Origin: Halomontanus rarus
GTDB lineage: Archaea > Halobacteriota > Halobacteria > Halobacteriales > Natrialbaceae
Reading direction: 5' to 3'
Assembly (NCBI RefSeq): GCF_017357405.1
Contig: NZ_CP071598.1
Coordinates: 310,001-374,000, forward strand
Length of the DNA stretch: 64,000 nt
Shown here: positions 47,369 through 60,796 of the stretch, in pieces
Layout of the letters: every line of letters begins with the position of its first letter
Position numbering within the stretch: the stretch's first letter is position 1
Notes under the pieces: generated by a model
Told to the model about the DNA's origin: nothing
Database searches by the model: none
What the model saw: only the letters and a program-made list of their open reading frames with translations
Program-made: the position numbers and the translations under genes

Positions 47369-47758
47369 ACCGGCAATCGTCGCAGACGATCTGACGAAGG
47401 AGTACCTCGAGACGACGGCTGTCGATGGCGTGACCCTCGAGATCGACCGTGGGGCAGTGTACGGCGACGAACCGACCAGCGGGCTCGATCCACGGGTCGG
47501 ACGGTGCCTGAGACCATCGTCGAATTGGCAACCAACGGAACGACCGTGTTTCTTTCGACCCACATTCTACCGGTGGTAGAGGACGTCGCTACCGACGTCG
47601 GTATTCTCTATGACGGGGAGCTGGTCGCTGAGGGATCACCCGACGAACTCAAAAAACGAATGGAAGGTGGTATGGAGAGTACCCTCGAGGACATCTTTCT
47701 GGAAGTGACGACCGACGAAGCCGACGAAGACAGTACAACTGAAAGCGAGACTAGCTGA
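47369..47758 (+). pseudogene. ABC transporter ATPase remnant, Walker A region deleted
   Basis: One frame reads IVADDLTKEYLETTAVDGVTLEIDRGAVYG, the start of an ABC-2-type ATPase. It jumps directly to DEPTSGLDP (Walker B region), so Walker A and the signature motif are deleted. After a frame change near 47500 the next frame reads TIVELATNGTTVFLSTHIL...GILYDGELVAEGSPDELK and ends EADEDSTTESETS. No permease follows. Non-functional. It is 3 bases after the M48 stop. Confidence 0.8.
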
Positions 47759-47812
47759 GTCCGTGGTTGTCGGGCCGACGTTTCTGGAACAATCTACAAA
47801 CTGAGAGGTAGA

Positions 47813-48190
47813 TCATTTCATCTCTTGGGTGAGATGTTCGACAGCGTTTCGATTTCCATGTTTTTCGTATCGAAATCGGTGTCCGAGATGATGGAGTGTA
47901 GCCTTGAGCCACGGAGCTGAATCGACGAGAAACACGGCGTCTTCGACGTTGTGTTTCTCTCTGAGCTCGCGAAGAACCATCTCAGTAAGTGCGGTTGTAC
48001 GCGTTGAACAGAGCGTGATATGGGGAAATTCGTTGGTTTCAGGATCGACAGCGGTGTCCAGCCAGTCGCGCTGATCGTCGAGTTGGATCGCGGTTTCGTC
48101 GAGTGCGACATCCGTGTCTCGTCGCGCCGTCACGGACGCGATGTCGTTTCCGGTGCCACCGCCGATAGCGATTAGATCGAAGTCGTTCAT
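47813..48190 (-). CDS. Chimeric ORF: flavoprotein N-terminus fused to IS6-type transposase core
   Basis: A 125-residue frame starting with ATG at 48190. Residues 1-25, MNDFDLIAIGGGTGNDIASV, are the FAD-binding start of a dihydrolipoamide-dehydrogenase-like flavoprotein. From ~residue 28 (DVALDETAIQLDDQRDWLDTAVDP) it is a haloarchaeal IS6-type transposase with all three DDE residues (VALDET, FLVDSA, RNAVEH), stopping right after the Glu. The two halves join in one frame without a stop. Probably a relic formed by recombination at DVAL; whether it is translated is unknown. Confidence 0.75.
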   Translation of the reverse strand: MNDFDLIAIGGGTGNDIASVTARRDTDVALDETAIQLDDQRDWLDTAVDPETNEFPHITLCSTRTTALTEMVLRELREKHNVEDAVFLVDSAPWLKATLHHLGHRFRYEKHGNRNAVEHLTQEMK

Positions 48191-48297
48191 CCGTATCCTC
48201 GATATATGACTGTAATAGTGAAAGAGGGGAGTCAAGTGTGCGTGAACTGCCCGATACTGGCCTAGATTTATGTCGCTATTCGATGTAGCCCACGTGC

Positions 48298-48420
48298 ATG
48301 GCAGATAATCACAACCACGATCACGATGACGGACACGAGTGTAACATCTGTGGCCAGTCGTTCGACTCGGAAGAAGACCTTCAGCAACACGCCGAAGCGG
48401 AACACGAAGACGAAATGTAG
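48298..48420 (+). CDS. C2H2 zinc-finger mini-protein
   Basis: A 40-residue protein: a His/Asp-rich start MADNHNHDHDDGHE, then one C2H2 finger CNICGQSFDSEEDLQQHAEAEH, then a short acid tail. It starts with ATG at 48298. The zinc ligands Cys15, Cys18, His31 and His36 are in typical spacing. Single-finger mini-proteins are common and often regulatory in haloarchaea. Divergent from the chimeric ORF. Confidence 0.75.
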   Translation: MADNHNHDHDDGHECNICGQSFDSEEDLQQHAEAEHEDEM

Positions 48421-48563: not shown

Positions 48564-50432
48564 TCACCTCTCAGACGGTGTGACTGGCTCGCCGAGCCGA
48601 ACCCCCATCGGCGCCGGTCCGGGCGTCTCGCGTCCCCGGACGTAGCCGAGATACAGGGCGCTGTTGACGATTCCTATATGACTGAACGCCTGCGGGTAGT
48701 TCCCGAGGTACGTGCCGGTCTCCGGGTCGATCTCCTCGGCGACGAGTCCAAGCGGATTCAGGTACCCCAGGAGCGACTCGAATCGGGATTGCGCTTCTTC
48801 GACGCGTCCGGAGAGCGCGAGCGCGTCGACGAGCCAGCACGTACAGAGGACGAACGCTCCCTCCTCGCCCGGGAGCCCGTCGTCGCCGTCGTACCGTGAC
48901 ACGAACACGTCGTCCTCGAGTAGCACGTCCTCGATCGCGTCGATCGTTCCCCGGATGCGATCGTCGTCGAACGGCAGGAATCCGACGAGCGGGAGCAACA
49001 GCCCCGTCGCGTCCAGTGCGTCCGAGCCGTAAGACTGTACGAACGCTCCCACGTCTTCGTCGTACCCGTTCTCGAGGACGTCCGTCCGGATCGTCTCGCG
49101 GGTCTCTCGCCACGCCTCGAGCGGGGCATCGTGGCGTCCGTCGGTGGCGATCGCGAGGCCCCGGTCGAGGGCGACCCAGCACATCACTTTCGAATAGACG
49201 AAGTGTTCGTTCCCGCCGCGGACCTCCCAGATACCCGCGTCGGACTCGTCCCAGACGTTACGAACGTATTCGACGATGTCGCGAATTCGCTCCCACTCGT
49301 CGTCGTCCAGCCCTCTCCCGTGCTGGCGCATCTCGTCGACGGCCAACAGGAGTTCTCCGTAGATGTCGAGTTGTCGCTGGTCGGCGGCCCCGTTCCCGAT
49401 TCGGACCGGTCGGGAACCGCGATACCCCTCGAAATGATCGAGTTCTCGCTCCTCGAGGTCGGACTCGCCGTGGAGCCCGTACAGTGGCTGGATCGCCGCC
49501 GGATCGTCCGTCTGACAGAGGTCCACGAACCAGTCGAAGTAGTCGTTCGCCTCCTCGGCGGTGCCGAGGTTCATCAAGGCCTGGACGGTGAATCCGGCGT
49601 CTCGAAGCCAGTTGAACCGATAATCCCAGTTTCGGACACCGCCGATATCTTCCGGAAGTGATGTGGTCGGAGCGGCGGCGATCGCCCCCGATTCGGCGTG
49701 CGTGAGAAGCTTGAGAACGAGTTCGGAGCGAACGACGCGATCGTGCCACGGCCCCTCGAACGCACAGCCGTCCTCGGAGTCGCAGTCGTGGGCCCAGCCG
49801 GTCCAGTACTCGATCGTCTCCTCCAGCGCGGCATCCGGGTCCGTATTCGCGTCCTCGGCACCCGTACACCGGAGCAAGAACCACTCCGTCTCGCCCGTCT
49901 CGAGCGAGAGGGCACCGGTAATTCGGCCGTCGTCGATCTCGAGGTCGACCGGGCTCTCGAGTAGTGTCCGTTCCTCCCCACCCTCGGCGAGAATGCCGTT
50001 CTCGACCGGTTCGATCGCCGTCGCCGCGCGACCGTAATCGAACTGCGGGTCGAGGTCGACCTCGAGGTCGACGGTCCCGTCAGTGCATGCGACCTTGCGG
50101 TAGAGGACTTTCTTCGGGTGATCGACCTGCCCTGCCGGGGGCAAGAAGTCCGTCACAGTCGCCGTGCCTCCCGTCGTACGGAAGATCGTCTCGAGGACGT
50201 TCGTATCGTCGACGTACCGTCGCTCCGTCTCGAAGGAGTCGGCCGGGCCGATCCGAAACCGACCGCCCCGCTCGGCGTCGAGAACCGCGGCGAGAATGCT
50301 CGGCGACTCGAGGTGCGGGAAGGGAAACCAGTCGATCGAGCCGTTCGGTGCGACGAGCGCGCACGTCTCGAGGTTGCCGATGACGCCGTAGGCTTCGATC
50401 GGCGGATAGGCACCGGACTCAGTCACCGACAT
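48564..50432 (-). CDS. Glycoside hydrolase family 15 (glucoamylase/trehalase)
   Basis: A 622-residue enzyme. The N-terminal beta domain begins YPPIEAYGVIGNLETCALVAPNGSIDWFPFP; the (alpha/alpha)6 barrel has GGVRNWDYRFNWLRDAGFTVQAL, GIWEVRGGNEHFVYSKVMCWVALDRG (catalytic Glu) and EEGAFVLCTCWLVDAL. This is the archaeal GH15 layout without a signal peptide, so it acts in the cytosol on maltooligosaccharides or trehalose. The ATG at 50432 is preferred to GTG at 50435. It is monocistronic. Confidence 0.93.
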   Translation of the reverse strand: MSVTESGAYPPIEAYGVIGNLETCALVAPNGSIDWFPFPHLESPSILAAVLDAERGGRFRIGPADSFETERRYVDDTNVLETIFRTTGGTATVTDFLPPAGQVDHPKKVLYRKVACTDGTVDLEVDLDPQFDYGRAATAIEPVENGILAEGGEERTLLESPVDLEIDDGRITGALSLETGETEWFLLRCTGAEDANTDPDAALEETIEYWTGWAHDCDSEDGCAFEGPWHDRVVRSELVLKLLTHAESGAIAAAPTTSLPEDIGGVRNWDYRFNWLRDAGFTVQALMNLGTAEEANDYFDWFVDLCQTDDPAAIQPLYGLHGESDLEERELDHFEGYRGSRPVRIGNGAADQRQLDIYGELLLAVDEMRQHGRGLDDDEWERIRDIVEYVRNVWDESDAGIWEVRGGNEHFVYSKVMCWVALDRGLAIATDGRHDAPLEAWRETRETIRTDVLENGYDEDVGAFVQSYGSDALDATGLLLPLVGFLPFDDDRIRGTIDAIEDVLLEDDVFVSRYDGDDGLPGEEGAFVLCTCWLVDALALSGRVEEAQSRFESLLGYLNPLGLVAEEIDPETGTYLGNYPQAFSHIGIVNSALYLGYVRGRETPGPAPMGVRLGEPVTPSER

Positions 50433-50731
50433 CACCCGCGGTACGGACCGAGGTGTCGAATACGACCGTCTCGAGACCGTTCTTTGCAGTGACTAGTTTT
50501 AGATCGGGCCCGGCGGATCCACCGCTGGTACCGAGTGCGACTCCCATGATACGATGTGAATCTTCGGCCAGCGGGATAAAGGTGCAACGCGAAGTGATAC
50601 GAGAACGAAACGCCACCGACTCGCTCTCGGCTGTCGAATGGAATCACGACCTCGTGGGCGGACTCGGCCGAGTGTCGAGGTCACAGAACCCGTCGACGAC
50701 ACTCTCGTGCGATCGGGGATATCTCGACGTT

Positions 50732-51274
50732 CTACCCGTCGTTCGCAACCGCGTGTGCGAGATCCGAGAGCGCTTCGGCGACGCCCGCGATCCGTTCGTC
50801 GGTTCCTTCGAGACCGTGGCGGCGAGCGAGGTAGTGTGGATCGTTGTACGTTACGTAGACGTCTTCGTCGGCCGCCCAGACCAGCAATTTTTGCGGAAGG
50901 TCGATCGCGACCGATCGGCTCGCCTGCATGAGCGGCGTGCCGACCGCGGGGTTTCCGAAGAGAAAGAGCGTCGTCGGTGGAAGTTCCGCACCGACCGTGT
51001 CGGCGTTCGCCGCGTGATCGACGGACGTGACGAGCAGCAGGTCGCGCTCCTCGAGGGCCGGTTCGACGCGAGCGACCGTCGTCTCGAAATCCGCGCCACT
51101 CTCGAGCGTTACCAGTCCGGAATCGTCGTCTCGAGTCTTCGAGTGGGTGCCAGCGCCGTTATCACGATCACCGTGTGTAGCCGTCGCCGTCGATCCGCCG
51201 ATTCCGAGGACCGTTCCTCCGCCGAGTAGTTGGACGAATCGTCGCCGAGCCGTACCGTTTTGGTCTCGTGTCAT
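50732..51274 (-). CDS. Secreted DUF302 domain protein
   Basis: A 180-residue protein with a Tat signal (RRRFVQLLGGGTVLG, residues ~12-30). The mature part matches DUF302: GADFETTVARVEPALEERDLLLVTSVDHAANADTVGAELPPTTLFLFGNPAVGTPLMQ then LPQKLLVWAADEDVYVTYNDPHYLARRHGL. The ATG at 51274 is taken. Function of the domain is unknown; it often lies with redox genes. Confidence 0.88.
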   Translation of the reverse strand: MTRDQNGTARRRFVQLLGGGTVLGIGGSTATATHGDRDNGAGTHSKTRDDDSGLVTLESGADFETTVARVEPALEERDLLLVTSVDHAANADTVGAELPPTTLFLFGNPAVGTPLMQASRSVAIDLPQKLLVWAADEDVYVTYNDPHYLARRHGLEGTDERIAGVAEALSDLAHAVANDG

Positions 51275-51499
51275 GACAGCATCAAAACGCAACCCCGATC
51301 ATAGTTGTACGGATAGTTTGCTCGAGTAATTGAGAGTTTGTTCCTGAAACGATACCCAGTGCGACGGTAGTCCTCGAGATGGATGTCACCGACGATAGTG
51401 CATCAATATGTGATCGTATACGAACGTTTCCGTCATAGTTGGTGGCGGTGGTTGCCGTAACGCCAATCGTGAAGGGCGTTACGATATAACATACCACAC

Positions 51500-52123
51500 A
51501 TGGAGGAGCCTACTGATCAACCCGAACCGGAAGCTGGACAGGTGTTCGAGTCCATCGAAGAGCGAGTCGATCGGCGCGACGACTGGGCGCGTCGTCGTCG
51601 GAAAAGTCTCCCCACGGACAAGCAGCTGCTAGTCATCGCATGCATGGACGAACGAATCCCCGTCGAAGAAGCACTCGGCATTTCCCTCGGCGACGCCCAG
51701 ATCTTTCGAAACGCCGGCGGGAAGGTGACCGACGACGTCATCCGGAGCGCCGCGCTGACCACGAACTTCTTCGACACGACGGAGATCGTCGTCGTCAACC
51801 ACACGGATTGCGGTATGATGAGCGCACCGGACGAAGCGGTCGTCGAAGGGCTCGAAGCCGCCGCTGGCGGTAGTCTGGACGATGTCGATCTCAATCCCGC
51901 ACTCCCCAGTTTGGATCTCGGCGACGCCTCGATCGCCGACTGGGTCTCGATGACCGACGACATCGACGAGGCGTGCCGGGCTCAAATCGACTATCTCGAG
52001 GACCACCCGCTCGTCCCCGACGAGGTTACCGTCCACGGGTACATCTACGAAGTCGAAAGCGGCGCCCTCCGTCGCCCTGGCGAGCGGGTATCCGAGCAGG
52101 TCAATACGCGTGTCTCGGAGTAA
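51500..52123 (+). CDS. Beta-class carbonic anhydrase
   Basis: A 207-residue Zn enzyme hydrating CO2. The zinc ligands are Cys (VIACMDERIPVEEALG, with the catalytic Asp-Arg pair), His and Cys (VVNHTDCGMM). DAQIFRNAGGKVTDDVIRS is the canonical helix. The ATG at 51500 leads an acidic, haloarchaeal N-terminus. Cytosolic. No carboxylase genes nearby. Confidence 0.93.
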   Translation: MEEPTDQPEPEAGQVFESIEERVDRRDDWARRRRKSLPTDKQLLVIACMDERIPVEEALGISLGDAQIFRNAGGKVTDDVIRSAALTTNFFDTTEIVVVNHTDCGMMSAPDEAVVEGLEAAAGGSLDDVDLNPALPSLDLGDASIADWVSMTDDIDEACRAQIDYLEDHPLVPDEVTVHGYIYEVESGALRRPGERVSEQVNTRVSE

Positions 52124-59230: not shown

Positions 59231-60796
59231 ATGGACGAGATGGAAGCGGACTATTCGTACGACCTCGTGATCCTCGGTGGTGGTGCGGCGTCGTTCGCTG
59301 CCATCACCGAAGCGAGCGACCGGGGACTCTCGACGGCGATGGTGAACACGGGGCTGCCGATCGGCGGCACCTGCGTGAACGTCGGCTGTGTCCCTAGCAA
59401 GCACCTGTTGGCGGTCGCCGAAAGCGCCTCCGCTCCTCGAGATAACCCCTTCGACGCCGTCCAGTACAGTGACGACGAACCGACCGTCGACTGGGCGACC
59501 GCACTGGACGGGACCGACGCCCTCGTCGAGCGATTCCGCCAGACGAACTACGTGGACGTCGCCGATCACTTCGAGACCGACATCTACGAGGGCTACGGGA
59601 AGTTGGTCGACAGCGTGGAGCAACGCTCTACGAGCAACCGGCCGCAATCCAGTGACGACACGACCATCGAAGTTGTCGACGGTGTGGATGAGGGGACACG
59701 CATCACCGGCCAGAAGGCACTCGTCGCCACCGGGAGTTCACCGTGGGCACCGCCTATCGACGGCCTCGACGGGCTCGACTACTACACGAGTGAAACCATC
59801 CTCGAGGAGCGCGACCTCCCCGAGAGCATTGTCATCGTCGGGAGCGGCTACATCGCACTCGAGTGGGGCCAGATCCTCCACCGCGTCGGCGTCGATATAA
59901 CTATTCTCCAGCGCTCCGAGCGGGTCCTCTCGGGGATGGAAGGCCAGCTCGGCCGCGAGATGCAACGCGCCTTCGAAGCAGAGGGAATCGAGGTCGTCAC
60001 CGGCAACGATTTCCAGCGCGTGCGCCCACCGGCAACCGACAGCGGTGCCGAATCCGTACAGTCGGGTGCGGCCGTCGAGACAGCCGTCGACGGCACTGAG
60101 CGAACGGTCACCGGAGATGCGCTGTTCGTCGCGACCGGTGTCCAGCCAAACAGCACGGGGATCGGCCTGAAAACGGTCGGAATCGAAACGAACGACGACG
60201 GAACAATCAACGTCGACGAGCACCTCCAGACGACGAACCCGAACGTGTACGCCGCCGGCGACGTGATCGGCGAACCCCAACTCGAGACGGTCGCCGCCAA
60301 GGAAGGCAATCACGCCGTCAAGAACGCCTACGGCAGTGCGGAGCAACGCTCCGCGGGCCGTTCGAGCGGGCAGAGCCCGCGAGAAGACAACGAGGGCGTC
60401 AGCATCGACTACGATGCGGTCCCAGCAGTCGTATTCACCGACCCCGAGGTCGCCGCGGTCGGGACGACCGAACTGGAGTACATGGACGAGCACGGCACCT
60501 GTTCGTGTCGGACTGTCCAGATGGAGGACGTGCCGCGAGCGAAAGCCGTTAAAAACACGGACGGGCTCGTTCAGGTCGTCAAACACCACGAGACCGATGA
60601 GATCGTCGGCGTCCACGTGGTCGGCCCCCGTGCCGCCGATACGATTATGGAAGCGACGCTGGCGGTAAAGTTCGGACTGACCGTCGACGACATCATCGAT
60701 ACCGTCCACCCGTTCCCGACGTTCAGCGAAGCGTTCAAACACGCCTGTCAGGCGTTCCGTCGCGATACGTCGACGATGAGTTGCTGCGTCGAATAG
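59231..60796 (+). CDS. merA: Mercuric reductase (MerA-like flavoprotein)
   Basis: A 521-residue FAD/NAD(P)H enzyme that reduces Hg(II) to Hg(0). Motifs: FAD site VILGGGAASFAAI, redox pair Cys48/Cys53 (GGTCVNVGCVPSK), NAD site VIVGSGYIALEWG, CDD-like YAAGDVIGEPQLE, and the C-terminal SCCVE pair (Cys518/Cys519) that passes Hg to the active site. No N-terminal MerP domain. The sequence contains two in-frame insertions (residues ~127-142, SVEQRSTSNRPQSSDD; ~370-387, SAEQRSAGRSSGQSPRED) whose DNA is palindromic. An ATG at 59240 may be the true start (see promoter). Confidence 0.9.
   Translation: MDEMEADYSYDLVILGGGAASFAAITEASDRGLSTAMVNTGLPIGGTCVNVGCVPSKHLLAVAESASAPRDNPFDAVQYSDDEPTVDWATALDGTDALVERFRQTNYVDVADHFETDIYEGYGKLVDSVEQRSTSNRPQSSDDTTIEVVDGVDEGTRITGQKALVATGSSPWAPPIDGLDGLDYYTSETILEERDLPESIVIVGSGYIALEWGQILHRVGVDITILQRSERVLSGMEGQLGREMQRAFEAEGIEVVTGNDFQRVRPPATDSGAESVQSGAAVETAVDGTERTVTGDALFVATGVQPNSTGIGLKTVGIETNDDGTINVDEHLQTTNPNVYAAGDVIGEPQLETVAAKEGNHAVKNAYGSAEQRSAGRSSGQSPREDNEGVSIDYDAVPAVVFTDPEVAAVGTTELEYMDEHGTCSCRTVQMEDVPRAKAVKNTDGLVQVVKHHETDEIVGVHVVGPRAADTIMEATLAVKFGLTVDDIIDTVHPFPTFSEAFKHACQAFRRDTSTMSCCVE
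59612..59631 (+). repeat. Coding palindrome 1 in merA
   Basis: GCGTGGAGCAACGCTCTACG: stem TGGAGC/GCTCTA with loop AAC (59616-59630). In-frame; encodes VEQRS. Same AAC loop and EQRS reading as palindrome 2. Confidence 0.55.
60338..60380 (+). repeat. Coding palindrome 2 in merA
   Basis: Two hairpins: GCGGAGC-AAC-GCTCCGC (60338-60354) and GCGGGC-AGA-GCCCGC (60366-60380). In-frame; encodes AEQRSAGRSSGQSPR. It lies in the C-terminal half and does not disturb a catalytic motif. Confidence 0.6.

Follow-up and report, generated by a model that had tools for sequence, protein, structure and literature searches.

The window, a 64,000-nt stretch of DNA (G000:C2:310001-374000), lies on the second (1.14 Mb) of the two contigs of a 5.17 Mb genome and contains, on its minus strand at positions 48190–47813, an ORF for a product of 125 aa (P0001) that reads MNDFDLIAIGGGTGN...EMK*. 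This ORF is a real chimera of two unrelated gene pieces joined in frame. Codons 1–27 (48110–48190) are what remains of the beginning of a Pyr_redox_2/dihydrolipoyl-dehydrogenase-type flavoprotein gene with its GGGTGN nucleotide-binding motif; codons 28–32 (V-A-L-D-E; 48095–48109) make up a junction zone that matches both parental sets codon by codon; and a fragment at 47757–48109, also on the minus strand, corresponds to the core of an archaeal IS6-like transposase (about residues 81–198 of 211); the DNA-binding part, the final ~13 residues and the two ends of the IS are all missing. The ORF is closed by an in-frame stop (47813–47815, minus strand) that lies inside the transposase homology.

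The IS fragment abuts the remnant of an ABC-transporter ATPase gene (47504–47758, plus strand), of which the 3′ part alone remains; residues 3–66 of its 84 are similar to ABC ATP-binding proteins encoded on haloarchaeal plasmids, and related annotated genes occur on other such plasmids. On the other side of the chimera, a gene on the plus strand (48298–48420) encodes a 40-aa C2H2-type zinc-finger protein rich in H, D and E, and is followed by a GH15 glycoside hydrolase gene (48564–50435). Two genomes from another genus also contain a dihydrolipoyl-dehydrogenase-type gene beside GH15 fragments (L056, 6009–7907, where the flavoprotein frame is split, and L057, 6561–8353); this arrangement was not taken as synteny, since the relative orientation differs from that in the window.

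A Pfam search with the whole ORF returned only DDE_Tnp_IS240, below threshold (14.4 bits against a cut-off of 27). A protein search retrieved 867 relatives; among the best 120 of these, the ones with a name were mostly IS6-family or other transposases, and none was named as a flavoprotein. After the ORF itself, the top match among these 120 was a locus from Halomontanus rarus TS33 (P0002, 92% identity over 85% of the query), followed by 211-aa transposases with identities of at most 77–78% over 78–84% of the query.

Flavoprotein-derived start and junction

In a codon-by-codon comparison, codons 1–27 showed a nucleotide match of 0.62 to 25 flavoprotein loci (L040–L053 and L071–L081, which are the loci returned by the N-terminal searches and not all the matching genomes) versus 0.26 to 31 IS loci (L009–L037, L054 and L055, with L013 and L054 being one element counted twice). 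The first 30 residues matched 82 of the 392 genomes of the order, counting the window's own (E ≤ 5e-4), with E values down to 3.3e-7 per genome and a best foreign identity of 62–63% over 29–30 aa, reached by flavoproteins in other families. The alignments started at residues 1–3 in most rows, usually within frames of ~450–600 codons, with some much shorter or longer, and in 36 of 95 genera the matches lay at the beginning of long frames. Besides the window's own locus (L039), 11 loci from the N-terminal search (L071–L081) were compared, and they read as flavoprotein starts with GGTCLNRGC or something close to it further on. Likewise, a blastn search of plasmids with positions 48101–48290 (E limit of 0.1) gave two records, H. 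rarus TS33 and Haladaptatus halobius, the latter match being to a dihydrolipoyl dehydrogenase gene (50 bases, 84%, E of 1e-3). Pfam assigned no family to the 30-aa N-terminal piece alone; the ORF does contain the GxGxx(G/N) dinucleotide-binding start characteristic of Pyr_redox_2 flavoproteins.

The chimera thus has the start codon, the first ~27 residues and the GGGTGN motif in common with haloarchaeal dihydrolipoyl-dehydrogenase-type flavoproteins, but lacks everything past codon ~32, including the redox-active cysteine motif (GGTCLNRGC), the dimerisation domain and the remaining flavoprotein domains, and is transposase-like from codon 31. When a full-length flavoprotein relative was compared with the genome, it matched the chimera locus by its residues 1–32 only. 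A preliminary description of this DNA had taken the first 25 residues for a flavoprotein-type dinucleotide-binding start; we agree on the origin of this piece but not on its length, which is of ~27 codons, with codons 28–32 fitting either parent. The same description placed the flavoprotein partner outside the window, and indeed we found no intact donor of the N-terminus in the window or in its genome. The two flavoproteins of this genome that were listed for the first 30 residues, one of them in the window (from 55381), were rejected as donors, being only 32–38% identical there, as was the window flavoprotein at 59255–60745, which showed 35% identity to the full-length flavoprotein and was absent from the matches listed for the first 30 residues.

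Within the junction zone, and in the same frame, flavoproteins read (T/V)-A-L-V-E and IS transposases V-A-L-D-E. The match to the flavoprotein and IS sets is approximately equal for codons 29 (0.75 and 0.69, respectively), 30 (0.85 and 0.88) and 32 (0.83 and 0.83), while codon 28 favours the IS set (0.44 vs. 0.71), and codons 31–42 match the flavoproteins at 0.34 versus 0.75 for the IS set. The exact degenerate string GTNGCNCTNG, spanning codons 28–31, occurs in 20 of the 31 IS rows and in just 4 of the 25 flavoprotein rows; the shared string is deduced from relatives, because the true flavoprotein donor was not found. This per-codon match to both parents fits a shared-string junction and, since the V-A-L codons are read in the same frame in both, the frame would be kept by construction. 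The comparisons therefore support a putative join at a V-A-L-x-E codon string common to both parents, and the parental switch at codons 28–32 backs the earlier proposal of an in-frame recombination at shared DVAL-type codons.

Transposase core and internal stop

The best blast alignments to the IS loci start at 48109–48106 in 28 of 31 cases and at 48125–48146 in the other three, and in 29 of the 31 they pass the stop and end at 47799–47737. Considering the 31 loci together, they start at 48146–48106 and end at 47844–47737, staying inside the transposase ORF and including neither IS end. IS homology thus extends ~56 nt beyond the stop, to around 47757. The stop position is informative in 29 of the 31 rows, all with a sense codon (CGA in 18, CGT in 4, CGC in 3, CAC in 2, and CAA and CGG in one each), which is for arginine in 26 of them. 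The preliminary description had the transposase followed by a stop; the stop is present, but it is a nonsense codon and not the end of the transposase.

As that description also proposed, the core retains the three catalytic residues (D31, D90 and E118), located in conserved columns that contain D, D and E in 113, 119 and 117, respectively, of the 119 other homologues among the best 120 of 867. In this same set, the ORF has a T at a column with F in 110 of 119 homologues, and the stop at a column with R in 110 of 119. These F and R belong to the motif E--F---K-R, presented as archaeal in PMC6807381, which the ORF does not keep because it reads E--T---K-stop. This source also gives an N-terminal H-HTH domain as a general feature of these transposases, whose domain structure is likewise given in PMC7986276. 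The H-HTH DNA-binding domain is absent from the ORF, where DNA homology begins at about residue 81 of 211; a tblastn alignment to an intact transposase does begin earlier, at residue 69, which extends it by 12 residues into the flavoprotein piece, but this leaves the absence unchanged. In summary, the ORF shares with the archaeal IS6-like transposases of the 211-aa group (ISH14, ISH15, ISH29 and kin) the catalytic core, from the first D as far as the E and the K that follows it, but, unlike them, it has neither the N-terminal DNA-binding part nor IS ends, its homology stops at about residue 198, and T and a stop replace F and R.

The IS part has a GC content at third codon positions of 0.53, versus 0.82 in the neighbouring GH15 gene. 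Copies of IS6-like elements occur widely in the family, with 111 of 125 genomes matching P0001 at E ≤ 0.001.

Comparison with H. rarus TS33 and other joins

The closest relative found at the locus is in plasmid NZ_CP119797.1 from H. rarus TS33 (Natrialbaceae), in a 1.1-kb stretch with 96.6% identity (blastn) in which the junction and the stop are both the same as in the window. In TS33, however, the ATG is changed to ATA and the flavoprotein part contains a one-base deletion. The annotated product of this locus, WP_276256326.1 (P0002; 106 aa, ‘DDE-type integrase/transposase/recombinase’), contains the same junction but, unlike P0001, starts inside the flavoprotein piece, downstream of the lost start codon and the deletion. 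Flavoprotein relatives show both a start codon and an intact frame at this place, from which we infer that both changes are losses in the TS33 line. Elsewhere in this region, the zinc-finger gene shows no substitutions in 123 bases and a 6-base length difference in a histidine/aspartate stretch, and TS33 is devoid of ~3.3 kb (window positions 48573–51874; L038:11999-12001) comprising nearly all of the GH15 gene; its DNA is contiguous across this point, so that the two relatives differ here by a clean insertion or deletion.

The IS part up to the stop differs from that of TS33 by 11 substitutions in 297 sites, distributed 3/4/4 among codon positions; seven are nonsynonymous and four synonymous (NG86 dN 0.032, dS 0.062, dN/dS ~0.5). 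These few substitutions appear to carry no coding signature. Substitutions amount to 2.1% in the upstream spacer, 0% in the zinc-finger gene, 2.8% in the next spacer, 3.7% both in the flavoprotein piece and in the IS part up to the stop, 8.9% (5/56) in the IS part after the stop, and 1.2% in the ABC remnant. The ORF thus seems to behave like spacer DNA, and unlike the conserved zinc-finger gene, although from small counts; the slow ABC remnant and the fast post-stop IS part show the noise of such short comparisons, and the latter would also agree with weak constraint ahead of the stop.

The TS33 locus was the only other example of the junction that we found. The exact 25-base junction string had no matches in genome_contigs or in viral_contigs; likewise, a degenerate pattern (GGGTGN codons, 24–51 bases, VALDET codons), which occurs once in the window and in none of 100 shuffles, had no matches in either collection. 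These zeros tell of more distant genomes only, because TS33 contains the string and is yet absent from the results, and records close to the window were possibly omitted. In one other genome of the same genus, the matches were IS6-like apart from one to the zinc-finger gene, and none of them spanned the junction. Additionally, P0001 is alone among the best 120 of 867 homologues in having a GxGxx(G/N) motif within the first 35 residues. Neither the pattern searches nor these 120 homologues therefore revealed a family of natural transposases with such a start.

We compared the 37 loci retrieved with P0001 with an intact transposase, looking for 5′-truncated cores. Five begin after residue 50: that of the window (L001), L007, L014, L017 and L032. 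Of these, L032 begins at a contig edge; L014 has eight open codons upstream; and L007, at 32% identity a remote copy with an accordingly uncertain start, is preceded by 88 open codons, yet its frame is closed by a stop shortly past the beginning of the IS. Conversely, L017 (G059:C1:3482232-3485558, from the same family) contains an IS6-like core (residues 54–211) in frame with 137 open codons upstream, with an ATG near their start. There is, then, one comparable in-frame join to a 5′-truncated IS6-like core elsewhere in the family, in a small sample, and the view that such a fusion is rare to catch was too strong.

Origin and fate of the chimeric ORF

In all probability, the chimera is an ordinary recombination scar, pseudogenic and decaying. 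A dihydrolipoyl-dehydrogenase-type flavoprotein gene would have lost everything past codon ~30 upon recombining with the central part of a transposase gene of the archaeal IS6-like kind, through a short string common to both genes (V-A-L-x-E codons, same frame), and this recombination probably also took away the 5′ part of the IS. As both parents read this string in one and the same frame, the product would have stayed open. The IS piece would also have been trimmed at its 3′ side, beside the ABC-ATPase remnant, and would have acquired the nonsense codon. Junction and nonsense codon are common to the window and TS33, with start codon and flavoprotein frame lost in the latter; the window's genome has presumably kept the ORF open because no disrupting change has reached it so far. 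Judging from the sequence, the chimeric ORF most likely makes no functional protein, and the fact that a close relative carries the join already broken gives it the appearance of genomic debris and not of a new gene. Against a relic, one may set the open frame in the window's genome, where the ATG and all three catalytic residues persist, and the dN/dS of ~0.5 from 11 changes, which is compatible with weak constraint; moreover, the shared string is deduced from relatives, and just one relative has the junction.

The preliminary description saw here a gene birth by IS capture. A new chimeric gene, in which the flavoprotein promoter and start would drive a transposase catalytic core kept for a cellular or regulatory role, would agree with the open frame, the retention of the ATG and of D, D and E, and the failure to find a natural transposase family with such a start (among the best 120 of 867 homologues and in genome_contigs and viral_contigs, where records close to the window were possibly omitted). 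Nevertheless, we regard it as very improbable: the only relative found with the junction, TS33, has it broken, without the start codon and the flavoprotein frame; the codon-position pattern of substitutions is flat; and the transposase is truncated at both ends, without DNA-binding part, IS ends or C-terminal end, and with a nonsense codon within the IS homology. A related reading, that in the window's lineage the chimera might be transcribed from the old flavoprotein promoter to give a 125-aa protein with the DDE triad, as an incipient gene before its loss or adoption that the sister H. rarus TS33 already lost, is extremely improbable.

An origin without recombination at shared codons, by simple insertion of an IS into an intact flavoprotein gene and later trimming on both sides, would be in line with the non-IS DNA flanking the IS fragment and with the abundance of IS6-like copies in the family (111 of 125 genomes), but seems quite improbable because no flavoprotein sequence past codon ~32 was found at the locus, with an ABC-ATPase remnant on the far side instead, and the IS piece begins within the transposase ORF and not at an IS end. 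Finally, a GGGTG-type string in spacer DNA beside the IS fragment might mimic a flavoprotein by chance, given that the piece has just ~27 codons and no Pfam family. This is hardly credible in view of the E values of its matches, their alignment from residues 1–3 in most rows and their position, which in 36 of 95 genera is the beginning of long frames, together with the independent DNA match to a dihydrolipoyl dehydrogenase gene and a fit of the IS set to the same codons at chance level only.

The recombination scar at this locus is, therefore, a small but clear illustration of the way in which recombination at codons shared by two unrelated genes can give rise to an in-frame chimeric ORF, and of its later decay. 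It also advises caution, in that an open frame with intact catalytic residues, even with an automatic annotation as ‘DDE-type integrase’ as in H. rarus TS33, is not proof of a gene.
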